In this document: positions 7,369 to 24,306 of the stretch, piece by piece
Position numbering within the stretch: the first letter of the stretch is position 1
How the letters are laid out: each line of letters starts with the position of its first letter
Origin: Bacillota bacterium
GTDB lineage: Bacteria; Bacillota; SHA-98; UBA4971
Reading direction: 5' to 3'
Assembly: GCA_030024085.1 (NCBI GenBank)
Contig: JASEJE010000025.1
Coordinates: 1-43,878 of the forward strand
Length of the DNA: 43,878 nt
Position numbers and translations under genes: made by a program
The notes under the pieces: generated by a model
What the model was told of the DNA's origin: nothing
The model's database searches: none
Seen by the model: only the letters and a program-made list of their open reading frames with translations

Positions 7369-8739
7369 TCAGTGCACCCTGACCTCCTGCCACCTGCCCG
7401 CGCGGAAGTGCCGGGCGGCGAGGGCGGAGCGGACGGCCCAGTCGAGGCAGGTTATGACCCAGACGGCCGGAAGGCCCAGGTGAAAGACGTAGATGGCGAG
7501 CACGACGAGGGGCATGCGCACGAGCCACGTGCCCGTGGCCGTTATGCGGAGCGCGGTGCGCGTGTCCCCGGCTCCCCGGAGGGAGCCGCAAAGGGTGTCG
7601 GTTATGCCGATGAACACCTGCTCGAAGGCGGCTATCCGCAGGCACACCGACGCGATCCGGACGACCTCGGCGTCGTTCGTGAACACCCTGATGATGAGGT
7701 GCGGGACCAGCAAGAACGCAAGACCAACGCTTCCCATGACCGCCACGGAGTAGCGCAGGGACCTGTAGCCCACCTGCACAGCCCGGTCCGCCCTCCTGGC
7801 TCCAAGGCTCTGTCCCACCAGGATGCCGGCGGCCACGGCGAAGCCATATCCCGGCATGAACGAAAGCGACTCCGCGGCCACCGTAACCTGGTTCGCCGCG
7901 AACGCTGTCGTCCCGAGCGCGGCGATGATGAACGATGAGACGAGCCGGGAGCCGTTCATGAGGGCCTCTTCAGCCCCCGCAGGCACGCCAAGCCTGACCA
8001 GGCTGCGCAGTATCGGCACGTCAAGCCGCACAACGTCACCTGCACGGATGTGCACCGCGCCGTTCCTGCGGAAAACGGCCCCGAGCATCAACAGGCCGCC
8101 TGCGACGTGGGCGACAAGCGTGGCAATGGCCGCGCCCCGCACGCCAAGCACGGGGAAGCCCAGCACGCCGAAGATGAGCACGTAGTCCCCGACCAGGTTT
8201 ATGGAGTTCGTCACTATCGTGATGTACATCGGGGTGCGCGTGTCGCCGGACCCGCGGAGGATCGCCGAACCGACCTGCAATGGTATGAAAAGAAGCGCCC
8301 CCGACCCCACGATCCGCATGTACTCGACGCCCGGCAAGCTTACGTCTTGCGCGAAACCGGCCAGGCGGTAGACCCACGGAGCGGCCACGATGGCGCCGCC
8401 GGCGAGGGCCGCGCCCAGCGCGAACCCTGCGAGGAGGCCCTGGCCCGCAGAGACCGCCGCTTTCCTTGCATCCCTCGCGCCGACGGCGTGCGCCACCATA
8501 GCCTGGGTGCCTATTCCGACGGCCGCGAAGATCCACGTGCACGTCCAGTACACGCTTCCGCCGAGGCCCACGGCGCTCAAGGCCTGCGCGCCGAGACGGC
8601 CCACCATCGCAGTGTCCACGATCCACACGAACATGTGGAGGACCATCTCCGCGATAGCCGGCCAGGCGAGTCTACGGATCTCGCGGTCGAGCTCAGCTCT
8701 TTCAGCCGGCAGATGCAAGGCTCCAGCGGATCCTGTCAT
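7369..8739 (-). CDS. MATE family multidrug/toxin efflux transporter (second of a tandem pair)
   Basis: Twelve-helix cation-coupled exporter of the multidrug and toxic compound extrusion family, in the cytoplasmic membrane. The 456 residues begin with a first helix, IAEMVLHMFVWIVDTAMVGR, that bears the family DTAMVGRLG motif. The two pseudo-symmetric halves each show a GAGDTRT/GSGDTRTPM loop, as in DinF/NorM-like proteins. The ATG is preceded by GGAGGAACGAAG. A promoter lies just upstream at 8774-8802, so it can be transcribed apart from the MATE gene before it. Substrate unknown. Confidence 0.92.
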   Translation of the reverse strand: MTGSAGALHLPAERAELDREIRRLAWPAIAEMVLHMFVWIVDTAMVGRLGAQALSAVGLGGSVYWTCTWIFAAVGIGTQAMVAHAVGARDARKAAVSAGQGLLAGFALGAALAGGAIVAAPWVYRLAGFAQDVSLPGVEYMRIVGSGALLFIPLQVGSAILRGSGDTRTPMYITIVTNSINLVGDYVLIFGVLGFPVLGVRGAAIATLVAHVAGGLLMLGAVFRRNGAVHIRAGDVVRLDVPILRSLVRLGVPAGAEEALMNGSRLVSSFIIAALGTTAFAANQVTVAAESLSFMPGYGFAVAAGILVGQSLGARRADRAVQVGYRSLRYSVAVMGSVGLAFLLVPHLIIRVFTNDAEVVRIASVCLRIAAFEQVFIGITDTLCGSLRGAGDTRTALRITATGTWLVRMPLVVLAIYVFHLGLPAVWVITCLDWAVRSALAARHFRAGRWQEVRVH

Positions 8740-8773
8740 CTTCGTTCCTCCGTGTTCCTCCGTCGCAGCGTCC

Positions 8774-8802
8774 AGTATACACGATCACGCGTGGCTGGTC
8801 CA
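8774..8802 (-). promoter_or_regulatory. Sigma-A-type promoter of the downstream MATE gene
   Basis: Minus-strand TGGACC (8797-8802), a 17-base spacer, then TATACT (8774-8779). The predicted transcript begins about 28 bases before the ATG at 8739. Confidence 0.6.
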
Positions 8803-8957
8803 GGTAGGCGGGAAGGCGGTCGTGGCGCGGGGCCGGCAGGTCAGCGGGAGCCGCGCAGTATGGCCCGACACCGGGCGAGCGCGATCGCCTGAATCCGCCG
8901 GAAGACGCGGTCCGGCCCGTATCCGGCAGCGGGCAATGGCCTGCCGGCACCGCTGGG

Positions 8958-10364
8958 TCACACCTGCAACTGCTTCCACCGACCGGCCCTGAACCTGTGC
9001 CACACGTAACCTCCACGCACGAGCCAGTCTGCGACCATGGCGAGCCAGGCGCCGAAGAGACCGAGCCCAGCCATCACCACGAGCAAATAGGTGGCGCTGA
9101 GCCTGACCACCCATACCGCGAAGGTGGTGACGTAGAGCACTGACCGGGTGTCGCCCGCCCCGCGCAGGGCACCGGAGAAGATGAACGCCGTGCCCATCGG
9201 CACCTGTCCGAAGGAGATCACACGGAGGGCGATCGACCCCAGCCTGATTATCTCGGGGTCGGACGTGTAAATCATCATGAGATACTCTGGCACCGCAAGG
9301 AACACCAGCGCCATCGTACCCATCACGGCAAGCCCCAGCTTCAGCGCCTCGCTGGCGCTTCGCTCAGCGACATCGGGCCTTCCGGCGCCCAGGCCCTGGC
9401 CGACCAGGGCGGTGGCGGCCGTGGCGAATGCAAGGCCCGGCATGAAAGACAGCGACTCGGCGTTGTTGGCTATGCTGTGAGCAGCGTATACGACCGTTCC
9501 CAGGCCTGCCACGGCCCTGATGTATACGAGCATCCCGGAGCTTATGACGAGCCTCTCGAGGATCGCCGGCACTCCTATCCTGAGCACCCGCGCAACGAGA
9601 GCGGTGTCAATCCTGAAGTAGGCCGCCAGGCGAAGCCGTGGCAGCGCGACGGGGGATGCGCGGCGACACGCCGCCCACAGGAAGAGGGCGCCTCCGATCA
9701 TCCTCGATACGGTCGTGGCGATTGCAGCCCCATCGACCCCGAGCGCCGGAAACCCGAAATGCCCGAAGATCAGCATGTAGTTGCCGACAACGTTGACGAG
9801 GTTCACCAGCACGTTGATCTTCATGGGCGTGGTCGTGTCGCCGGCCCCCCGCAGCGCCCCTCCGACGGTCATCGTGGCGAGGAGCATCGCGAACCCCGGC
9901 ACGAGATACCTGAGGTATGACGTGCCCAGCGCGATCACGTCCGGCTCTGCCCCCATCAGGGTCACGATGTCGCGGGCGTATACATAGGCCGCGGCGCACG
10001 TCACCAGCGCCAGGACCGTCGATACCAGGAGAGACTGGTGGTTCGTGCGTCCGGCCATCCGCCGCTCCCCTGCCCCGGTAAACCTCGCCACGAGGGCGGT
10101 CGTCCCCACGGAAAGCCCCATGAACACGCCCTGGCCCAGGAAGAGCGGCTGCATGCTCAGGCCCACCGCCGCAATGGCGCTCGCTCCCAGCCGCCCGACC
10201 ATGGCCATGTCCACGACCTGGGTCAGCGTCTGCAGCACGACTTCCGCGAAGACCGGCAGTGACAGCTGGATGACCCTTCGCCTTATAGCAACAGCGTCCC
10301 CCGACGCCGCATCCGGCGTCGGGGGAGCCTTGCGCAGCCCCATGCTCGTGGCCTGCTCAGCCAA
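8958..10364 (-). CDS. MATE family multidrug/toxin efflux transporter (first of a tandem pair)
   Basis: A 468-residue twelve-helix MATE exporter. The first helix reads FAEVVLQTLTQVVDMAMVGR and the two half-repeats carry GALRGAGDTTTPMKI and GALRGAGDTRSVLY. The start is TTG at 10364 with GGAGGGAG six bases upstream. It is separated by 218 bases from the second MATE gene on the same strand. The two proteins are clearly related but different, so this is an old duplication or a tandem acquisition rather than a recent copy. Confidence 0.92.
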   Translation of the reverse strand: MAEQATSMGLRKAPPTPDAASGDAVAIRRRVIQLSLPVFAEVVLQTLTQVVDMAMVGRLGASAIAAVGLSMQPLFLGQGVFMGLSVGTTALVARFTGAGERRMAGRTNHQSLLVSTVLALVTCAAAYVYARDIVTLMGAEPDVIALGTSYLRYLVPGFAMLLATMTVGGALRGAGDTTTPMKINVLVNLVNVVGNYMLIFGHFGFPALGVDGAAIATTVSRMIGGALFLWAACRRASPVALPRLRLAAYFRIDTALVARVLRIGVPAILERLVISSGMLVYIRAVAGLGTVVYAAHSIANNAESLSFMPGLAFATAATALVGQGLGAGRPDVAERSASEALKLGLAVMGTMALVFLAVPEYLMMIYTSDPEIIRLGSIALRVISFGQVPMGTAFIFSGALRGAGDTRSVLYVTTFAVWVVRLSATYLLVVMAGLGLFGAWLAMVADWLVRGGYVWHRFRAGRWKQLQV

Positions 10365-10429: not shown

Positions 10430-13400
10430 TTACCACGCCGAGGAGGCAACGGCGTGCACCGGCCTGTAATAATCCTCGGATACCAGCTCTTTCGTGGTTT
10501 CGCCGCCTGAGCAGAAACTCCTCCACACTGCGACGCGGATGCCGCTCTCGCCTCCGTAGGCTGGACCCCCCGGCTCGGCCACAGCGCCCGAAGCCCCGGC
10601 GCCTGCCCCGCCGACGAGCCTGGGCCTCTCCGTCTCCTGGACCTCGGTGATCACGCGGACCTGCGGGGTCTCCACCAGGGGTGCGCACGCCTCCATCACC
10701 AGCCTGTTCCCGTCGACCCGCGCGCTCAAGGCGACCGGCACCCCGAGCGTGTTCCGGAACCTGAGGTCGTACTGGCCCTCGGCCACTGTCGCATCGAGCC
10801 CGGGCGGGACGTAGCCCACGGGTCTCGAGTGCGGGTGGCGCTCGACGATCTCGAACCCGGCAAGTAGCGCCACGTTGTAGAGGGTCGTCGAGACCTGGCA
10901 TATCCCCCCGCCTACCCCAGGTGCGCTCCTCCCCCCGGAGAGGACCCGCGCTTCCCTGTAACCGGCCTCCGCGAGCCTCGGCCCCACAGTCCGGTCGAAC
11001 GAGAACTCGTCGCCCGGCTGGAGCACGGCCCCGTCGATAGCGGCCGCAGCCAGCGCAACGTTGTGGTTGCGACTCTCCTCCGGGTCCTTGAGCGTTGTGG
11101 AAAAGCTGGCGAGGACCGGCTCCGCGCAGGAGATCTTCGAGCTTGCCGACCGGCCGGAGACGTCAGGCGAGTACATGCCCCACACCCGCGTCGGCATGAC
11201 CCGGTAATCTCCAGGCCGCTCGGCTCGTATGGGGTACACGATCTCGTTTTCGCCTTCTTTCAGGTAGCCGCTGAAGAAGGCCACCTTCTCGTCGCGGACC
11301 TCTTTCCTGCCGTACCAGAAGTTCCAGCTATAGACGTCTATCGGCTCATCGGATGCCTCGAAGCCCGACGGTAGCGGATCCTCGATGATCATGTAGGTGT
11401 GCGGGCTATCGGCCTTGATGCTGATGCGGACGTATATCTCCTCGCCCGGCTTCACAGCGCCGGTCACGGGTTCGTACACGTACTCCGGCTTCTCCTCACC
11501 ACCGCCAGCCTTGCCGCCTCGGCTTCCCTCGCCCCCTGCGGCAGCAGCCGGCGCCGCGGCCCTCCGGTAGTAGCCCCGGATCACCGCAAGGCCCTGCCCT
11601 CCAGGCGCCACGGAGTCCGCAGCCGTGTAGTACTCACAAGAGAACGTGTAGTACAGCCTGCCCTTCCCGCCGTCCTTCGCGATGGTGATCTCGTTCTGCC
11701 CGCGCGCAAGGTCGCGCGCGTCTACGCTGACCTCGATCTCCTTCTCGAAGACGTCCTTTCTGCTGAAGTGCACCCTCTTGACGTCCTTTCCGTTGATGCT
11801 GACGGAAGCGGTGTAGTTCGGCGCGACCTCGTCGCGTAGCTTCAAGTATTCGGCCAGCGCAAACACGGCTATGGCTGTGTCCTTGGTGGAGAACCACGCC
11901 TCGCCGCGCCGCGCGTCCGCAATCCATCTCACCGCTCCCGGGACCTTCTCGTTCGCGGGATCCACGGCGAGCATCGCCATGAGCGCGTACGCGGTGGTCT
12001 CCACGCGGTTGTCCGCCCAGTACCGCTCGCCCTCCGGCGCGTCCCAGTAGGTGAGCATGTCGTCGCCTCGCGCCGACGCGAGGAGGTCCTGAAGCACCTC
12101 CCTGGCATCATCGGCCCGGCCCACGTTGTCGAGAGTAAGCACGAGGAGCGCAAGCGAGTATTCGGAAAGCTCGAGCCGCCTCGCCACCATCTCGTCGAGC
12201 CTCGCAAGGCTCCTCTCTCCCACCTCGGACATGACGTAGAGCTTGTATACGAGGTCGTCCACGTCGCGCGGCCTGCCAGCAAGCTCGACAAGCGCTCTCT
12301 TCCCTCGCGCGAGCACCTGGCCGTCCACCTCGAACCCCGCCTTCCGCGCAAGGTCGAGGCCGTATACCACGTAGGCGGTCATCCTCGGGTCCGTCTGGTC
12401 GTACTCCCACCAGCCCCATCCTCCGTCGTAGTGCTGGTAGCGGTAGAGCCTCGCGAGGCCCGCCGAGACCATCCTCGGCAGGTCCTGCTCGACTTCAGGC
12501 GGCGCCTGCACCCCGAGATCCTTTAGCGTCTGGGCCACGACCACGTCGGGCAGGAAGGAGTCCATGGTCTGCTCGACGCACCCGTACGGGAACGATGCCA
12601 GGTATTCGAGAGCCCCCAGGGCCGCGGCCGCAACCGACGGCGCGAGCCGCACCTTCACGCTCACAGTCCCTGGCAGCGCGTCCGCCGGCACGTCGAACCT
12701 CACCGCCGCCCTGGCGCGGCCCACGTTGTCGCCAGCCCCTGCCCCGGCAACGCCGCTGGCCCCACCGTCGCCGACCTCGCCCGCCTCATGCTGCTCGTGC
12801 CGCACACCGAAGGGCAGCACCGGCACGCCTATTTCAAGCGCGTCCCGCGCCCGTCTGATGTCAGCCTGGGCCGACGCCACGAAGCGTGCGACCCCGACCT
12901 CGCCGCACTCGACCTTCCAGTCGAGCGAGGCCTGGCCCATGGGGCCAAGCTCCACCTCGCGCTCGCCCGCATCTTGCAGCGCGACACCCTCGGCCTTGAG
13001 AGCGATCTTCGCCCTAATCTTGCGCCCTGTGTAGTTGTGGACGATCGTCGACACCGCCGTCCGGTCGCCCAGCGTGAAGAAGCGCGGCGTCGCAAGCCTC
13101 ACGACGAGGTCCTTCGTGGTCACGACGTCCCGGGTCGCCGACCCCACCTGAGTCCTCAAGGTGTGCGCCCGCGCGGTCGCCCGCCAGGTCGTGAGGTTAT
13201 CCGGCATGATGAACTCGATCTTCCCTGTGCCGTTTCTGTCCGTCACGATCGTGGGGTTCCAGAAGGCCGTGTCCTCGAACTTCCTTCGCACGTCGGCTGA
13301 CCCGCCGTCTTTGTCGGCGCCCCCGTAATACCACTCGGGGAACGAGTAGTTCGTGACCACCCTGTTCCAGATGGACCCATAGAACGCCTTCTTTATGTCG

Positions 13401-15580
13401 GGCGCCATCTCCGGCTGGATCGCGTATATGGACGCGTCCACGACCCCCAGTGACACCTCCGACTGCACCGGGCGGCCCGCCGCGTCCGTGGTCTTCACCA
13501 CATAGGTAGCCTTGTCGCCCGGACTGTAGGTCTCCTTGTTCGGAATGATCGCCACGTTCAGGTAGTTGTCCTTCGTCGACACATAGATGGTCCTCTCCCT
13601 GGAGAAGAGCCTCTTCCCGCGGACCATCGTCACGGTGAAGAACGCGTTCGGCATGTGCTCCCGCGTCACCGGGACCTCGAACAGCCTGGTATGCCCGGTG
13701 ATGTGGACCGCCTCATGAGAGGCGAGGTCGCGCCCCTCGATGGTCACCACCGCCCACGCGTCGTCGAACGTGGTGTTCACCAGGATCTTCGCCGTGTCCC
13801 CGACCTCGTACACGTCCTTGTCGGCCACGATCTCTATCTCGGTGCCGCCGTAACTCGCCCAGCGGCTCGCTCCGCTCGTGACCCAGAGGTACGCTTCGGA
13901 GACGATCCGGTTGCCCCGTCCGTCGGTCCCGACGACCTCCACCACGTAGGACCCTTCCTCGAGCGGCGTAAACTTGAAGCTTCCCTTGCCGTCCGCAGCC
14001 GTGCCGAGGGAACCCGACGCCTCTTTCCACCGCCTCGCTTTCTTGTCCTCCCAGGTTTGGCGCATGGCCTGCCATTCGAGCCGCACGGCAAGCGGCTTGC
14101 CCTCTATGGTTTCAGCCTTCACCCGCACTGTGGCAGGCTTGCCCGGCTCCGCCACGTAGGCCGCCGGCTGCACGCTCACGTCGAATAGGCCGCGCGCCAC
14201 GATGACCGAGGCCCTGCCCGTAACCTCGCGTCTGCTCTCGTCGGTCACGACCGCTTCGATGAACACTTTCCTCGTCATGTCCGCCTTTTGCGTCTTGATG
14301 GCGAACGACATGCGCCCGCTCGAGTCCGTCACGCCTTCGCCAGACGCCACAAGCTCGCCGTAGTACCCGAAATCATCGTCGCCGACCGGATAGTAACCAA
14401 GGTCCTCGAAGGAGTAGTACGAAAAGTAGTGCGGCTGGGAGTACGCTGCGTATTTGACCTTTGCACCCGGGACTGGCGCGCCGAAGTAGTAGGTGGCCTT
14501 CACGGCGACCGGGACCTTGTCGCCCGCCACGCACGTGGTCTTCGGCACTTCCACCTGCACCTGGTACTCGGGCTTGCGGTACTCCGCCACCTTGAACGCG
14601 CTCGAGTGCGTGCTCCCCCTCACCGTGGCGAGCACCCGGTAAACGCCGAGCGCCGGCTCGTCCCCGAGCACGAGGTCGCCGGCGAATGAGCCGAAGCTGT
14701 TCGTCGTGGCCTCGGTCTTGTAGATGCACGCGTCACGCGCGTCACGCACCTCCACACGGACGGGCTCGCCCGCGAGCACCCTGTAGTCTCCGCCGTCCTC
14801 CTCGCGGAGGATGCCCTTGAAGAACACCCGCTGGCCCGGCCGGTACACGGGCCTGTCGGTGTAGATGTACGCCTTGTAGCGGGAGTCCTCCCAGTAGTAG
14901 GACGAGGTCACCTGGGCGAAGCTCTCGCCCGCCGTCCCGACCACCGAAAGACCCTTTCCAAGGCTCGGGACGTTCAGCACCCACAGGCCATCGCCCCCTG
15001 TGGTTCCGCTTGCGACCTCCTTGCCCTCGCTGTACACGGCGACCTTTGCGCCCGCGCACGGCGCGTCCTTGCTGAAGGTGTGGGCGTACACGAGGAGCTT
15101 ATCCTGGGCCTGCTTCGTCACGAGGCCGAGGTCTGTCACGAGGATCCACGTGGTGTCCTCGCGGCCGTGGCTGTCGCGCGCCTTCACGACGTAGCCCGCG
15201 ACCCTGTCGGCAGGCACGGGCACCCTCAAAGTGTAGTCCCCACCCCGATTCTTCGGGCGCGGATACTCCGTGAGCCTCTTCACCAGCACCGCCCCGCCCT
15301 GAGGCAGGGCCTCCTCGGCCGAGTGCAGCGACCCACGCGCCTGGAACTGCGTGATGGGGTCGAACCTCCACATCGCGAGGTCGATCCGCGTCGCACCGCG
15401 GCCCCGCACTATCACGGACGGGTGCTCGGAAGGTGCCCATACCCTTTCCTCCGTATACATGTAAAGGTAACCCTTATCGGCGCTGTCTGCGGAAAGCGGC
15501 CTTACGAGAAACGCGAGCGCCGCGACAGCCGCGAGCGCCGCAACCGCGTAAGGTATCCATCGCGCGATACGAGGTTTCAC
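10430..15580 (-). CDS. Alpha-2-macroglobulin-like protease trap fused to a C-terminal VanW domain
   Basis: A 1716-residue secreted or membrane-anchored protein. Residues 9-29 form a signal/anchor helix. Macroglobulin-type beta domains follow, including the MG2 segment YIYTDRPVYRPGQRVFFKG near residue 240. The A2M core begins near residue 790 with FWNPTIVTDRNGTGKIEF and MPDNLTTWRATARAHTLRT. The thioester motif PYGCVEQTMDSF has its cysteine at about residue 1001, followed by the helical thioester domain (YDGGWGWWEYDQTDPRMTAY). Around residues 1485-1620 lies a full VanW domain (PGDEFSFDRTVGPR, GGGICQVSTTLYN, HSRPVGYVPPGLDATV). Such proteins trap proteases covalently; VanW domains occur in vancomycin-resistance and surface proteins of unknown action. 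The GTG start follows AAGGAGG. It is 19 bases after the AMMECR1-like gene, so the two form one operon. Confidence 0.93.
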   Translation of the reverse strand: MKPRIARWIPYAVAALAAVAALAFLVRPLSADSADKGYLYMYTEERVWAPSEHPSVIVRGRGATRIDLAMWRFDPITQFQARGSLHSAEEALPQGGAVLVKRLTEYPRPKNRGGDYTLRVPVPADRVAGYVVKARDSHGREDTTWILVTDLGLVTKQAQDKLLVYAHTFSKDAPCAGAKVAVYSEGKEVASGTTGGDGLWVLNVPSLGKGLSVVGTAGESFAQVTSSYYWEDSRYKAYIYTDRPVYRPGQRVFFKGILREEDGGDYRVLAGEPVRVEVRDARDACIYKTEATTNSFGSFAGDLVLGDEPALGVYRVLATVRGSTHSSAFKVAEYRKPEYQVQVEVPKTTCVAGDKVPVAVKATYYFGAPVPGAKVKYAAYSQPHYFSYYSFEDLGYYPVGDDDFGYYGELVASGEGVTDSSGRMSFAIKTQKADMTRKVFIEAVVTDESRREVTGRASVIVARGLFDVSVQPAAYVAEPGKPATVRVKAETIEGKPLAVRLEWQAMRQTWEDKKARRWKEASGSLGTAADGKGSFKFTPLEEGSYVVEVVGTDGRGNRIVSEAYLWVTSGASRWASYGGTEIEIVADKDVYEVGDTAKILVNTTFDDAWAVVTIEGRDLASHEAVHITGHTRLFEVPVTREHMPNAFFTVTMVRGKRLFSRERTIYVSTKDNYLNVAIIPNKETYSPGDKATYVVKTTDAAGRPVQSEVSLGVVDASIYAIQPEMAPDIKKAFYGSIWNRVVTNYSFPEWYYGGADKDGGSADVRRKFEDTAFWNPTIVTDRNGTGKIEFIMPDNLTTWRATARAHTLRTQVGSATRDVVTTKDLVVRLATPRFFTLGDRTAVSTIVHNYTGRKIRAKIALKAEGVALQDAGEREVELGPMGQASLDWKVECGEVGVARFVASAQADIRRARDALEIGVPVLPFGVRHEQHEAGEVGDGGASGVAGAGAGDNVGRARAAVRFDVPADALPGTVSVKVRLAPSVAAAALGALEYLASFPYGCVEQTMDSFLPDVVVAQTLKDLGVQAPPEVEQDLPRMVSAGLARLYRYQHYDGGWGWWEYDQTDPRMTAYVVYGLDLARKAGFEVDGQVLARGKRALVELAGRPRDVDDLVYKLYVMSEVGERSLARLDEMVARRLELSEYSLALLVLTLDNVGRADDAREVLQDLLASARGDDMLTYWDAPEGERYWADNRVETTAYALMAMLAVDPANEKVPGAVRWIADARRGEAWFSTKDTAIAVFALAEYLKLRDEVAPNYTASVSINGKDVKRVHFSRKDVFEKEIEVSVDARDLARGQNEITIAKDGGKGRLYYTFSCEYYTAADSVAPGGQGLAVIRGYYRRAAAPAAAAGGEGSRGGKAGGGEEKPEYVYEPVTGAVKPGEEIYVRISIKADSPHTYMIIEDPLPSGFEASDEPIDVYSWNFWYGRKEVRDEKVAFFSGYLKEGENEIVYPIRAERPGDYRVMPTRVWGMYSPDVSGRSASSKISCAEPVLASFSTTLKDPEESRNHNVALAAAAIDGAVLQPGDEFSFDRTVGPRLAEAGYREARVLSGGRSAPGVGGGICQVSTTLYNVALLAGFEIVERHPHSRPVGYVPPGLDATVAEGQYDLRFRNTLGVPVALSARVDGNRLVMEACAPLVETPQVRVITEVQETERPRLVGGAGAGASGAVAEPGGPAYGGESGIRVAVWRSFCSGGETTKELVSEDYYRPVHAVASSAW

Positions 15581-15599
15581 AGCCGCCTACCTCCTTCGC

Positions 15600-16568
15600 C
15601 TACCTTCTCAAAGGCAGGGCCTTCCCGAATCGCTCCGTCTCGAAGACGTATAGCTCATAGTGCTCACCTGGACCCACGCCGGCCTCGCGCTTCGCCCAGG
15701 CCATCTCGTATGCGCCCGTCCTGGCCTCGCCGGGCAGGATCACGCCAGCCCTCCCGTTCGCCCTTACAATGACGCCCTGGATTCGCGGGTTCACCGGCAC
15801 CGCGGGGTCGTGCCGCCTCACCCTGCCGACCACCGACACGCAGTACTCGAGCCGAGCCACTTCCTCCGGTCGCACGGGCAGGCGACGCGGGTCCGACGTA
15901 GCCGCCATCCGCGCCGCGCTTGCGATCTCCTCGGCGAGCGACGCCTCCATCGGATAGACGGTGCCCATGCACCCCCTCACCCTGCCATCGAGGATGAGCG
16001 CGACGAACACTCCAGCGGGTGCCGCGAGGATGGCGTCGGCCTGGCGGCTGTCCGGGGGACGGCCACCCGGCGCCCGCGCCTGCGGGCCCGCCGCGTGGCA
16101 CCGCTCCTCTGCACCGTACCCGGCAACCGCAGCGGCTATGGAGGAACGTGCGATCTCGAGAATCTCTTGCTCAAGAGCCGGGGTCCTGGCCGCGCGGATA
16201 CGATCCAGGACATCGCCGGAGGCAGTTGCCGGAACAGCAGCCTGTGCTGGTGCCGGCGCTGGCGCTGGTGCCGGTGCTGATACTGACGGAAGAGATCCTT
16301 GCTCGAGCCCCCGCAGCGTCCCGGGTGCCGGTGGTGGCGCCGACGCAAGTGCGGCCGGCCGCGCTCCCAGTGCGTCCACGATCGCCGGCGTCCGGTCCCG
16401 GGGACCGCCCCCCGTTTGCGCGAGGCGGGTGCCCATATGGAGACGGACTTCCCCCTTGAGATCTCCGGCAACAGCCGAGAGCGCGAGACACACCGCCCCC
16501 GTCCCCATGAGAAGCACGGCGGCGCGCACGGGTCCCGGGAGCTTTCGCAATCTCTCGAACAAGGGCAC
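15600..16568 (-). CDS. Membrane-anchored or exported AMMECR1-domain protein
   Basis: The 322-residue protein has an N-terminal hydrophobic segment at residues 13-34 (VRAAVLLMGTGAVCLALSAV), a Pro/Ala-rich linker near residues 75-115 with PA repeats, and a C-terminal AMMECR1 domain. The domain carries the family signature as DGRVRGCMGTVYP, with the preceding PAGVFVALIL strand. AMMECR1 domains are normally cytosolic and in bacteria often accompany Memo and a radical SAM protein; neither is visible here. The anchor puts this one outside the cell. GTG start with GGAGG five bases upstream. It is the first gene of an operon with the alpha-2-macroglobulin/VanW protein, which suggests a shared surface function. 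Confidence 0.85.
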   Translation of the reverse strand: MPLFERLRKLPGPVRAAVLLMGTGAVCLALSAVAGDLKGEVRLHMGTRLAQTGGGPRDRTPAIVDALGARPAALASAPPPAPGTLRGLEQGSLPSVSAPAPAPAPAPAQAAVPATASGDVLDRIRAARTPALEQEILEIARSSIAAAVAGYGAEERCHAAGPQARAPGGRPPDSRQADAILAAPAGVFVALILDGRVRGCMGTVYPMEASLAEEIASAARMAATSDPRRLPVRPEEVARLEYCVSVVGRVRRHDPAVPVNPRIQGVIVRANGRAGVILPGEARTGAYEMAWAKREAGVGPGEHYELYVFETERFGKALPLRR

Positions 16569-17240: not shown

Positions 17241-18164
17241 ATGATCACGTACATAGTCCAGCCTGGCGACACCCTTGCTCTCATCGCGGAGAGGTTCGGC
17301 ACCACGGTCGAGGCCGTTGTCGATGCTAACAACATCGCGAATCCCGACGTGATCTTCGTCGGACAGGTGCTCCAGATTCCCGTGCCGGCGGCGCCGCCGG
17401 TGACCCCGCCTCCACCGCCCATCGCGGTGCCGGTTGGTTTTCGGCTGTACATCGTCCAGCCCGGGGACACCCTCGCGGAGATCGCCGCGAGGTTCGGGAC
17501 CACCGTGCAAGTGCTTGCGGCCATAAACCGCATTCCGAACCCGGACTTCATCGTCGTCGGCCAGGTGCTGCTCGTGCCGGTAAGGCCGACGATCGTGGTC
17601 CCAACGCCGTTGCCACCGCCTCCACCACCCACGGTGCCGCCCGGGCCGCCAGTCACGCCGCCTCCCGTGCCGTCTCCGCCGCCTCCGCCAGCGCCGCCGG
17701 TGCCGACGCCGCCCGTGCCGCCCGGGCCTCCAGTGCCACCCGGGCCTCCACCGACGCCGCCGGCACCTGTGACCGGGGTGAACCAGGTCTCCGTGGTGCA
17801 AGACGGCCTGCGGCACACGTTCATGGTGAACAAGGTCAGCTATGCCCGGGGCGAGCCTGTGCGCATGAGCCTGACGAAGACCAACGTCACCACCGGCCCC
17901 GTGACGATCACGTACCGGTCCAGCCAGAGGTTTGATTTCATCGTCACCCGCGACACGAGGGAGATATGGCGCTGGTCGGCGGGGAAGTTCTTCACGTTCG
18001 CAATAGAGCGGGTCACGCTGCCGCCCCGCGAAAACCTCGTCTTCATGCAGACCTGGAACCAGACCACGAACGAAGGAGTGCCGGTCGGGCCAGGCGTGTA
18101 CACGATCACGGCGGTCAACACCGGGACGGGCGTCAGGCTGAGCCTGCAGATCGAGATAAGGTGA
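17241..18164 (+). CDS. LysM-repeat protein with C-terminal BsuPI-like protease-inhibitor domain
   Basis: The 307-residue protein has two LysM peptidoglycan-binding repeats (residues 3-48, YIVQPGDTLALIAERFGT; residues 69-112, YIVQPGDTLAEIAARFGT), an almost pure proline/valine linker (about 115-180) and a C-terminal beta domain. In the last domain, MVNKVSYARGEPVRMSL and FDFIVTRDTREIWRWS, with FFTFAIERVTLPPRENLVF, match the BsuPI (intracellular proteinase inhibitor) family. There is no signal peptide; it begins directly with LysM, like several spore-coat or cortex proteins. ATG with GGGAGGG upstream. A sigma-K-like -10 pattern lies about 80 bases upstream. A spore-envelope role is an inference. 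Confidence 0.85.
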   Translation: MITYIVQPGDTLALIAERFGTTVEAVVDANNIANPDVIFVGQVLQIPVPAAPPVTPPPPPIAVPVGFRLYIVQPGDTLAEIAARFGTTVQVLAAINRIPNPDFIVVGQVLLVPVRPTIVVPTPLPPPPPPTVPPGPPVTPPPVPSPPPPPAPPVPTPPVPPGPPVPPGPPPTPPAPVTGVNQVSVVQDGLRHTFMVNKVSYARGEPVRMSLTKTNVTTGPVTITYRSSQRFDFIVTRDTREIWRWSAGKFFTFAIERVTLPPRENLVFMQTWNQTTNEGVPVGPGVYTITAVNTGTGVRLSLQIEIR

Positions 18165-20828: not shown

Positions 20829-22634
20829 CTAGACAGCGATCCCGAGCCGGTCCAGGGTCTCGGCCGAAGGCTTGCCATCCTCGCTCCAGCCTCTGGCTGC
20901 GTAGTAATCGGCCAGCATGTCGGCAAGCTCCACCACCTGTCCGGCTGCGGGGCCTTCCGGCATGGGCTCATTGAGCAGCCTTGGAGCCAGGGTGTCGTCC
21001 TCCTTCGTGAGCCCCTCTCTCAGATTGAAGAGACGCTCCAGGTTCCAGATGCGCTCGCCGGCCAGCGTTGCCTTCTCCGTGGAGAACGGCATGCCTGTCG
21101 CAGGCTCGAGCATGCTCACGACATCCGACGCGCCCAGCGCAAACGTGGTGAACAGGCACATTCCGACCGAATCCACGAGCGCGGTCACGTCCTGGAACGC
21201 CTTGACCCAGGCGGCCTTCCCGTCCTTGGAGAGGGGATCTATCTTCTCCGGGACCCCAAGGATCTCGGGAGAGATGGTGTAGCCCCTCACGTGGCAGCCG
21301 CCCCTGTTCGAGGTGGCGTAGTTGAGCCCGATGCCCTTGACGCCGCGCGGATCGTACGCCGGATACTCCTGTTTCTTCGCGCTCATCGAGAGCTCCGGGT
21401 GGCCGAATTCCGCAGCGAGACGATAGGACCCCTTCGCAAGCAGGTCGCCGATGCCCTCCCGGTACCCGGTCCTGCGCGTCGCCTCGACCACGGCATCGGC
21501 GTCGCCGAACACGAGCGGGATGTCGGTCGCGTTCTTCGGGAGATACCCCTTCTCGTAGAGCTCCATGGCGCACGCTATGGTCGATCCCATGGTTATTGGA
21601 TCAAGACCAAGCTCGTTGCACAGGTAGTTGGCCTTTGTCACGGCTTCGAGGTTGTCAACGCCACAGGTCGCACCGAGCGCCCAGATGGTCTCATACTCGG
21701 GACCTTCGCCTTCACCCTTGTACTTCCCGCTCTTCACGACGCTCGGCCGCCCGCACGCGATGGGGCACCCGAAGCAGGCCCGCTTCCTCACGAGGAGCGT
21801 CGCGGCCAGCGTTTCACCGGATATCTTCTCGGCACCCTCGAACACGCCCGTCTGGAAGTTGCGCGTCGGGAAGGCCCCGTGCTGGTTGATGACGTTCACG
21901 AGGACGGCCGTCCCGTACGTGGGAAGGCCCTGCGATGTGACCGGGGCCTCTTTGATCTTCTTGAAGGCAGCGAGCACAGCCTCTCTGAACTTCGCCGGGT
22001 CGGCTACCTTCACGTCGCCCGTGCCCCTCACCACGATGGCCTTCAGGTTCTTGGAGCCCATGACCGCGCCGACCCCCGAGCGCCCAGCGGCGCGGCCCTT
22101 GTCGTTCACGACGCACGCGAAAAGCACGAGCTTCTCGCCGGCGGGCCCGATGCACGCGACTTTGGCGTCAGGGTCGGTCTCCGAGACAAGGATATCCGTG
22201 GTCTCGGCGGTGTTCTTGCCCCAGACGTGTTTTGCAGAGCGGATCTCGGCTTTGCCGTTGTGTACCCAGATGTATACTGGCTCCTCCGCAACGCCTTCCA
22301 CGATGATGGCGTCAAAGCCGGCATACTTCATCTCTGCAGGAAAATACCCGCCGGAGTTCGACGCAGCGATAAACCCCGTGAGCGGCGACTTCGTGACGAC
22401 GTTGTAGCGGCCGGCCGACGTAGCCGCAGTGCCGGTGAGAGGCCCGGTGGCGAAGATGATCTTGTTGTCCGGGCCGAGCGGATCCACGCCGGGCTCCAGC
22501 TCGTCATAAAGGATCTTCGTGCCAAGGCCTCTCGCCCCAAGGTACTTCTCGGCGATCTCGGGGCACAGGTCTTCCACGGACACCGACCTTGCACTGAGGT
22601 TAACCCGAAGGATCTTTCCCGTCCACCCGTACAT
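20829..22634 (-). CDS. aor: Tungsten-type aldehyde:ferredoxin oxidoreductase
   Basis: A 601-residue member of the AOR family, which oxidises aldehydes to acids (or runs in reverse) with ferredoxin, using a tungsto-bispterin and one [4Fe-4S] cluster. It starts [20 protein letters not shown], contains [20 protein letters not shown] and the cluster cysteines in [12 protein letters not shown] (C-x2-C-x3-C, with a fourth in [10 protein letters not shown]), and [12 protein letters not shown] of the pterin region. The ATG overlaps the upstream ferredoxin stop as TGATG, so translation is coupled. Partner genes on the strand are ferredoxin, MoaD and a flavoprotein reductase. Physiological substrate unknown. 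Confidence 0.93.
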
Positions 22635-23116
22635 CACAGCTTCACCTCCTGCAGGGCCTTCTTGAGCTTCTCGCCCACAGCTTTGCGCCTGCGCAGCGCG
22701 GCGTCGTCTGCCTGCACATACTTGATCGCGTCCCACGGGCAGAACAACACGCACTCCGGCTCGCCGCCGCAAAGGTCGCATTTTACGACCTTATCCTCGG
22801 ACGGGGAGTAGGCGATCGCCCCGAATGGGCATGCGGCCTGGCACATTCTGCACCCTATGCACTTCGCATCATCGATGACCACTGCCGCCGTTTCCGGGTG
22901 CCGCGATATGGCACCGGTGGGGCAGACGTCCTGACAGAGAGGTTCCTCGCAATGCTGGCATGTCAGCGGAAAGAAGAAGTTGTCCTCGAGAAACGTAGCC
23001 ACGGTGATCCGCGCTTTCGCCGGGTTGAACGACCCTGCATGTTTGGCCGAACACACAAGCTCACAGATACGGCACGCCGTGCACTTCTCGTGCTCCACTA
23101 GCAGGACCTTCTCCAA
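22634..23116 (-). CDS. Four-cluster [4Fe-4S] ferredoxin subunit of the AOR system
   Basis: A 160-residue polyferredoxin with cysteine sets [35 protein letters not shown] and [14 protein letters not shown], enough for four [4Fe-4S] clusters as in HycB/DmsB-type electron-transfer subunits. It would carry electrons from AOR. The TTG start at 23116 has GGAGG eight bases upstream. A longer in-frame reading exists upstream but lacks similarity and overlaps the GGDEF gene. It begins 62 bases after the GGDEF stop, so it could be co-transcribed with that gene; a weak -10-like TATAAC lies in the gap. Confidence 0.92.
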
Positions 23117-23178
23117 GGCACCGTCCCTCCTTCTTCTCATTTTGTTATACAATTTCTTTAAGTCGCGCTGAAATCCTC

Positions 23179-24306
23179 CTATGTCGTGGAAAGTGGTTGG
23201 GAGCGCGAGTCTAGAGTCGAGGCTGCTTCGAGAGCCATCTCCGCAAGAGATGGATGGTATAACTGCACGCGGTTGCCACCGGAGTTCTTCGCCGCGTACA
23301 TGGCCCGGTCGGCCCTGTCGAGGAGAGTGAGGGCGTCCTCGCCGTGGTCGGGGAAGACAGCGACCCCGGCGCTTATCGTGACCCGCAGGCTCTGGCCGTT
23401 CGGCCCCGAAAAGCTGGCCCTCGCAACCGCATCCCTGGCCCTTTCCAGCGCAGCGAGAGCCTCGTGCTGTCCGGCCTTTGGCATCACGACGGCTATCTCG
23501 TCGCCACCGTATCGTGCCAGGCAATCGGTGGCCCGGAATGTCCTTTTCAGCGTATCCACAAGCTCAGTGAGGATCTTGTCCCCCGCAAGGTGCCCGAAGG
23601 TATCATTCACGCTTTTGAAGAGGTCGAGGTCTATCATGCTGACCGCCAGCGGCTCGTCATACCGCGCGGCCCTCTTGAGCTCATTCCGAAGGACGTCGAG
23701 CAGGTAGCGATGGTTGTAGATCCCGGTGAGGGGGTCAGTCCTCGAAAGGGCAAGGATCTCCTGCCTCAGCTTCTTTTCCTCCTCCGTCAGAGTGCCGAAG
23801 AAGAAGCTGAAAAGCAGGAACATGGCGATCATGAACACGAACCTGGAGAGGTTCAGCCCTGATAGCCCGTCTGTGAACTTCCCCGTTGCCAGGACGGCAA
23901 GAGAGAGGCCGCACGCCGCGCAAGTTGCCGCAAGCCCGACCTTAAGCCCGAACCTCAGCGTGGCCGAGAGTATCGGCAACGCAAACATGGGCCAGAAAGG
24001 GCTTGAAGGCCCACCTGATACATATATCGCCGCCCCGACGAACACGATATCGGCACCGGTGAGGAGCAGCCTCAGCCAAACCCTGTTCCCCCGTGCAGTG
24101 GTCGCGAGGGCGTGCCTGATCCAACCGTAAGCAACGCTGCCCAGCGCGAGCACCGTAGGAAGGGAGCCGGGTTTCCAGCCGATCTCATCGAAGAATGCTG
24201 CGCCCAGCGCTATGCACACAATAACTGCCGACATCCAGAGCCTGTCGATGATCGGCGTGTCGCGCTCCGTAAGAACGCCTTCTGGCTGAAGTCTTTCTCG
24301 GGTCAC
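23179..24306 (-). CDS. Membrane-bound diguanylate cyclase (GGDEF domain)
   Basis: It makes c-di-GMP from GTP. About five hydrophobic segments (from LWMSAVIVCIALGAAFF to FVFMIAMFLLFSFFFGTL) form an N-terminal membrane sensor without a named domain. A C-terminal GGDEF domain begins at LSRTDPLTGIYNHRYLLDVL. The signature is RYGGDEIAVVMP, i.e. GGDEI rather than GGDEF, which is still compatible with activity. The start is uncertain: GTG at 24306 has a purine-rich site upstream, while in-frame ATGs at 24378 and 24396 are possible. A promoter lies at 24507-24535. The gene precedes the AOR cluster on the same strand. Confidence 0.85.
   Translation of the reverse strand: MTRERLQPEGVLTERDTPIIDRLWMSAVIVCIALGAAFFDEIGWKPGSLPTVLALGSVAYGWIRHALATTARGNRVWLRLLLTGADIVFVGAAIYVSGGPSSPFWPMFALPILSATLRFGLKVGLAATCAACGLSLAVLATGKFTDGLSGLNLSRFVFMIAMFLLFSFFFGTLTEEEKKLRQEILALSRTDPLTGIYNHRYLLDVLRNELKRAARYDEPLAVSMIDLDLFKSVNDTFGHLAGDKILTELVDTLKRTFRATDCLARYGGDEIAVVMPKAGQHEALAALERARDAVARASFSGPNGQSLRVTISAGVAVFPDHGEDALTLLDRADRAMYAAKNSGGNRVQLYHPSLAEMALEAASTLDSRSQPLSTT

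Follow-up and report, generated by a model that had tools for sequence, protein, structure and literature searches.

We found that the gene at positions 15,600 to 16,568 of the window (the whole stretch of 43,878 nucleotides of Bacillota DNA analysed here) encodes a membrane-anchored form of AMMECR1, a domain of unknown function usually located inside the cell. This form is an orthologous family, and its pairing with a macroglobulin gene is not a matter of chance. We propose that in diderm Bacillota it could belong to a periplasmic module for envelope protection, together with a thioester macroglobulin trap and a VanW LD-transpeptidase, a proposal that we believe and doubt in about equal measure. 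VanW, overlooked by the sequence-only reading of this DNA, is the third partner and a free-standing gene in other families. No extracytoplasmic AMMECR1 and no such operon is described among the matches listed for the PMC literature, in which subscription journals are mostly uncovered; Memo-AMMECR1 systems are the topic of a 2019 paper cited in the accessible part of PMC7159879.

The AMMECR1 gene and its parts are as follows.

15600..16568, minus strand: membrane-anchored AMMECR1 protein, 322 amino acids (open reading frame with GTG start; Pfam)
16467..16523, minus strand: N-terminal hydrophobic helix, residues 16-34, with four K/R before it (present in 22/22 orthologues)
16215..16466, minus strand: variable linker, about residues 35-118, Pro/Ala rich in the window species (sequence, dN/dS)
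15627..16064, minus strand: AMMECR1 domain, residues 169-314 (Pfam PF01871)
15963..15977, minus strand: RGCMG motif, residues 198-202 (alignment; Cys200 in 22/22 orthologues and 42/42 canonical domains)
15581..15599, minus strand: 19-nt gap with AGGAGGT, a strong ribosome-binding site for the macroglobulin gene (sequence)

The presence of the domain, proposed earlier from the sequence alone, is borne out by the match of PF01871 to residues 169-314 (86.6 bits, E 1.7e-24, curated cut-off 25). With TIGR04335 (AmmeMemoRadiSam system protein A) the window protein scores 74.2, below the model cut-off of 99. The family profile also matches the structures 1zq7, 1vaj and 1wsc, 1zq7 being the closest solved one; an AlphaFold model of the domain, built from three near-identical rows, reached a mean pLDDT of 48.9 and was set aside. 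The suggested membrane anchor is likewise there: residues 16-34 have a mean Kyte-Doolittle value of 2.14, and of 500 shuffled versions of the first 90 residues, 7 reach this value. A false helix from a miscalled start codon was ruled out by the good ribosome-binding site, AAAGGAGG, six bases ahead of the GTG, and by the occurrence of the helix in every orthologue. The Pro/Ala linker of the sequence-only reading holds for the window species and its nearest relative, and elsewhere the linker has another sequence and length. A scan for promoters and terminators gave nothing useful, its one terminator-like match lying inside the macroglobulin gene and shuffled sequence giving 3.1 on average.

On another contig of the same genome, a 483-amino-acid open frame carries an ordinary AMMECR1 domain behind a long N-terminal part that we take to be Memo. 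Thus, the copy in the window is additional and specialised. It shares with canonical AMMECR1 (PF01871, TIGR04335) the domain and its core residues; unlike it, the window protein has a membrane helix and lacks the long N-terminal part of the 483-residue copy.

With a search profile built from 14 orthologues, the membrane-anchored form was found in 22 genomes of four families (f1, to which the window belongs, f2, f63 and f73) in two classes. The window's class has it in 14 of 17 genomes (f1 12/13, f2 2/2, f3 0/2) and the second class in 8 of 12 (f63 7/8, f73 1/1, f38 0/3). These eight further carriers, all from f63 and f73, came from a profile search of a sample of 398 genomes of the phylum, where their copies score 190-220 bits vs at most 131 for canonical ones. 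Among the relatives, 'Firmicutes bacterium UBA6811' is 89% identical and another Bacillota MAG 60%. A Chloroflexi lead (L005) proved spurious, its open frame not being AMMECR1, and in 301 genomes of the phylum of that record, titled Chloroflexi, nothing exceeded 129.1 bits, which is the canonical range. Plasmids gave no match.

The AMMECR1 gene is followed by a large partner gene.

10430..15580, minus strand: macroglobulin-VanW fusion protein, 1716 amino acids (open reading frame, Pfam)
13421..13837, minus strand: bait-region domain A2M_BRD, residues 582-720 (Pfam)
12569..12580, minus strand: thioester motif CVEQ, residues 1001-1004, in the TED domain (sequence)
10691..11071, minus strand: VanW domain, residues 1504-1630, with candidate catalytic Cys1561 and His1584 (Pfam, alignment; triad in PMC12729407)

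Pfam places MG2, bait-region, A2M, TED, bMG10 and VanW domains in this protein, which has what defines a type I bacterial alpha-2-macroglobulin, namely a CxEQ thioester motif, a bait region, and MG and TED domains. Of 17 macroglobulin ORFs, 16 contain the thioester motif and one is cut off before reaching it. In all 13 f1 genomes VanW is fused to the macroglobulin. Of 10 genomes outside f1, eight have it as a gene of its own directly after the macroglobulin gene, and in two the contig ends before that point. According to the accessible part of PMC12729407, VanW-family proteins of C. difficile were identified in 2024 as LD-transpeptidases, and some VanW proteins lack this activity. Since the family includes LD-transpeptidases, AMMECR1, macroglobulin and VanW form a trio with a likely cell-wall enzyme. 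The Cys and His are kept in 14/14 VanW domains, as expected from sequence for an LD-transpeptidase, and for the window VanW, which has both residues, the activity is only predicted. LdtCd4 and LdtCd5 of C. difficile are alike in having a VanW domain with the Cys and His of the described triad (PMC12729407, as far as available); unlike them, the VanW proteins studied here are fused or linked to a macroglobulin, and Pfam finds in them no PG-binding domain of the C. difficile kind.

The gene pair is conserved throughout the 22 genomes, where its absence would have spoken against the sequence-only reading. In 21 of them the macroglobulin gene lies directly downstream on the same strand, and in the remaining one (G013) both genes are at contig ends. 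The 19-base spacing given earlier for the window is exact, and in 15 loci measured the gap runs from -4 to 53 nt with start codons as called (L003 and L004 match the G002 and G003 contigs in length and are probably duplicates of them). Among the 398 phylum genomes, 20 have both genes, one has AMMECR1 only, on a contig that stops within the macroglobulin gene, and two have the macroglobulin only, with that gene touching the contig edge; G010 and G280 show this arrangement, macroglobulin at the edge and no AMMECR1 form. An A2M domain occurs in 67 of the 398; the top 22 (at least 66 bits) belong to the lineages with the module, and none of the 45 below them (58.4 bits or less) has the AMMECR1 form. 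That AMMECR1 works together with a protease trap, as suggested before, is thus well supported by linkage, while a physical or functional interaction between the two is something we infer.

The location called for a correction. A surface module had been envisaged, and surface display is rejected because Omp85 is present in 25 of 26 host genomes (24 at 1e-47 or better and one weak match at a contig edge; the miss is G010, an assembly of about 320 contigs). Consequently, the hosts are diderm, and the periplasm is the most likely site. Within Bacillota, a diderm envelope is known from Negativicutes, Halanaerobiia and Limnochordia, as stated in the part of PMC11448272 at hand. All 22 orthologues carry a net positive charge ahead of the helix, and K/R counts favour an N-inside orientation in 16, being equal or reversed in six. 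From these sequence features, the helix probably sits in the inner membrane with the AMMECR1 domain facing the periplasm. A hydrophobic segment is also found at the start of most macroglobulin ORFs and most free VanW proteins; none is seen in G280, which is truncated at the 5' end, in the G015 macroglobulin as called or in the two G127 fragments located after a gap in the assembly.

The AMMECR1 domain is under strong purifying selection, with dN/dS of 0.05-0.14 in eight of nine pairs and 0.3-1.03 in the part before the domain; the ninth pair, G000 vs G002, gives no ratio, its domain dS being 0. The RGCxG and DxR core of PF01871 is conserved in the membrane-anchored form. Invariant in 22/22 orthologues and 42/42 canonical domains are Cys200, Gly202, Glu214, Asp226, Arg228, Gly265, Gly275, Leu278 and Pro279; Arg198 is kept in 21 of 22 (Ser in G002), and Gly199 is Ala in 8 of 22. 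The membrane-anchored form differs from canonical AMMECR1 by fixed switches, Ser245 for Asp, Glu281 for Gly, Trp291 for Ile, Glu295 for Lys and Thr311 for Val, and by the loss of two residues after position 280. As a separate observation, the two nearest species (L007 / L003 vs the window) show a dS of 0 in the AMMECR1 domain and 0.11 in the preceding part, which suggests recent recombination in the domain; the amino-acid change visible there, Arg198 to Ser, strikes the RGC motif.

The reading of a periplasmic module is based on gene order, co-inheritance, the VanW fusion, the membrane helix, the thioester, the VanW Cys and His, the AMMECR1 core, purifying selection and Omp85. The macroglobulin would trap proteases entering the periplasm, and the VanW domain, in some families a membrane protein in its own right, could cross-link peptidoglycan where the wall is attacked. 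AMMECR1, held by its helix in the inner membrane, would be the membrane-tethered partner. Its kept core (Arg198, Cys200, Glu214, Asp226 and Arg228), presumably a pocket, may bind a periplasmic ligand, for instance a peptide from the wall or the trap, and the changed C-terminal part (residues 280-297), presumably a face, may dock the macroglobulin. The kept core suggests that the type of ligand or the chemistry has stayed the same, and the altered C-terminal part that a new partner has been acquired. Against the module reading, both classes belong to one phylum, and part of their shared gene order may simply have been inherited.

PBP1C is encoded together with type I macroglobulins, and for this pair a joint task has been proposed in which proteases are trapped and damage to the wall is mended (PMC4498604 and PMC5764988, in the portions accessible). 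The best reading by analogy is that the trio may follow the same trap-and-repair plan as the E. coli macroglobulin with PBP1C, VanW standing in PBP1C's place. As with E. coli alpha-2-macroglobulin (YfhM/ECAM), a thioester (type I) macroglobulin goes with a peptidoglycan-building enzyme in a diderm; unlike there, the wall enzyme is VanW, fused in one family, and a membrane protein of the AMMECR1 type is added. The PBP1C-type domain BiPBP_C (PF06832) was found in 0 of 26 genomes and was detected in the E. coli control. Since such domains are missing also from the module-less relatives G014 and G016, a replacement of PBP1C by VanW is compatible with this result and no more than that. The trio suggests that bacteria have coupled a macroglobulin to a wall-building enzyme at least twice, the enzyme being VanW in one lineage and PBP1C in another.

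Alternatively, AMMECR1 could be mainly a structural anchor or stabiliser of the macroglobulin, with a core devoid of chemistry or ligand binding, as MagB is for MagD. We consider this rather unlikely, though it accounts for the helix in 22/22, the direct adjacency of the genes and the altered C-terminal part, and Ser in place of Arg198 in G002 speaks against a strict need for the motif. The precedent is the Pseudomonas mag operon (MagD with MagA, MagB and MagF), where a macroglobulin also has a membrane-anchored partner in the same operon (PMC5764988, in its accessible part); unlike the present protein, MagD lacks the thioester, and the same part of that source does not mention an AMMECR1 or VanW partner. 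However, a pure anchor need not retain Cys200, Glu214, Asp226 and Arg228, all invariant in the 22 orthologues; the domain is under strong purifying selection, and the macroglobulin has an N-terminal hydrophobic segment of its own.

The invariant Cys, in a motif common to the 22 orthologues and the 42 canonical domains, leaves some room for a periplasmic enzyme in which Cys200 would modify the macroglobulin (for example, the state of its thioester) or peptidoglycan stem peptides for VanW. Both partners are Cys-based too, through the thioester motif and the VanW Cys. However, this wholly conjectural role has no counterpart in the matches listed from the literature, whose accessible parts report no enzymatic activity of an AMMECR1 domain, and we regard it as improbable. 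It is tempting to go one step further and see AMMECR1 as a general Cys-dependent module for peptides or acyl groups, of which one copy moved to the periplasm in the service of the protease trap and the wall cross-linker, to act on the thioester of the trap or on peptidoglycan stem peptides; we hold this broader view to be equally doubtful. If true, it would reveal the chemistry of a domain common to archaea, bacteria and humans.

In archaea, AMMECR1 is counted among the uncharacterised proteins of top priority (PMC6393860), and in humans a point mutation of the gene leads to a developmental syndrome (PMC5502304), both according to the accessible parts of these papers. By tying a membrane-bound AMMECR1 to two better-understood proteins, our results would narrow its candidate substrates to extracytoplasmic ones and make the question of its function testable. 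As a side observation, PF01871 tops the anaerobic Pfam markers shown from an oxygen model, with about 3.38 for aerobes vs 50.66 for anaerobes in the available part of PMC13386939; this would agree with canonical AMMECR1 having a role that is sensitive to oxygen.

Returning to the proposed module, its history was followed in a tree in which one branch, with support 100/100, splits the 22 membrane-anchored rows from 46 canonical ones (rows dropped were L002, L080, L081 and L082, at the same places as others, and L127, a weak canonical match). With a midpoint root, the tree joins f1 with f63/f73 (97/78) and not with f2 of the same class, which misfits the class ranks. AMMECR1 and macroglobulin distances correlate with r 0.90, and with a partial correlation of 0.74 given canonical AMMECR1, a value as high being reached in 0 of 2000 permutations; the test used 20 of the 22 genomes, leaving out G006 (without a canonical row) and G257 (without the thioester region). 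That the AMMECR1 gene is a passenger with an unrelated function, tied to the others by shared transcription or inheritance only, would suit the restriction of known carriers to two classes of one phylum, but is very unlikely given this partial correlation, a trio that stays constant while the flanking genes vary between families, and the lack of the AMMECR1 form in relatives that lack the macroglobulin.

Among the six window proteins scanned against Pfam, the nearest neighbours are the macroglobulin, VanW, LysM-BsuPI and MatE. One gene lies divergently beside AMMECR1.

17241..18164, plus strand: divergent neighbour with two LysM domains and a BsuPI proteinase-inhibitor domain (Pfam)

It is found beside the AMMECR1 gene in all 12 f1 loci long enough to show it (in G010 the contig begins inside the macroglobulin gene), and a search of 10 loci from other families found no match to it. 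The LysM-BsuPI protein may thus be a functional partner, confined to the window's family. Its BsuPI domain is named for an 'intracellular proteinase inhibitor', so that it could be a second antiprotease beside the trap. For G004, the flank survey gave no tblastn match to AMMECR1, though another search found it there at 73% identity.

The f63 flanks hold Hsp70-like, cation-efflux and HAD-like genes, of which the first and the third were named by eye from sequence starts. In L109 and other f63 loci the trio lies near Hsp70-like and other heat-shock-like genes, also named by eye, which may hint at regulation by stress. Downstream of the window's macroglobulin gene, two tandem MatE-like transporter genes, 41% identical, occupy positions 7369-10364 of the minus strand; they form a pair in several f1 loci and are single in others (e.g. 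G001, G006, G009 and G011). An aldehyde ferredoxin oxidoreductase is encoded at 20829-22781 on the minus strand, with a ferredoxin-like ORF, recognised by eye, just upstream at 22634-23524 on the same strand.
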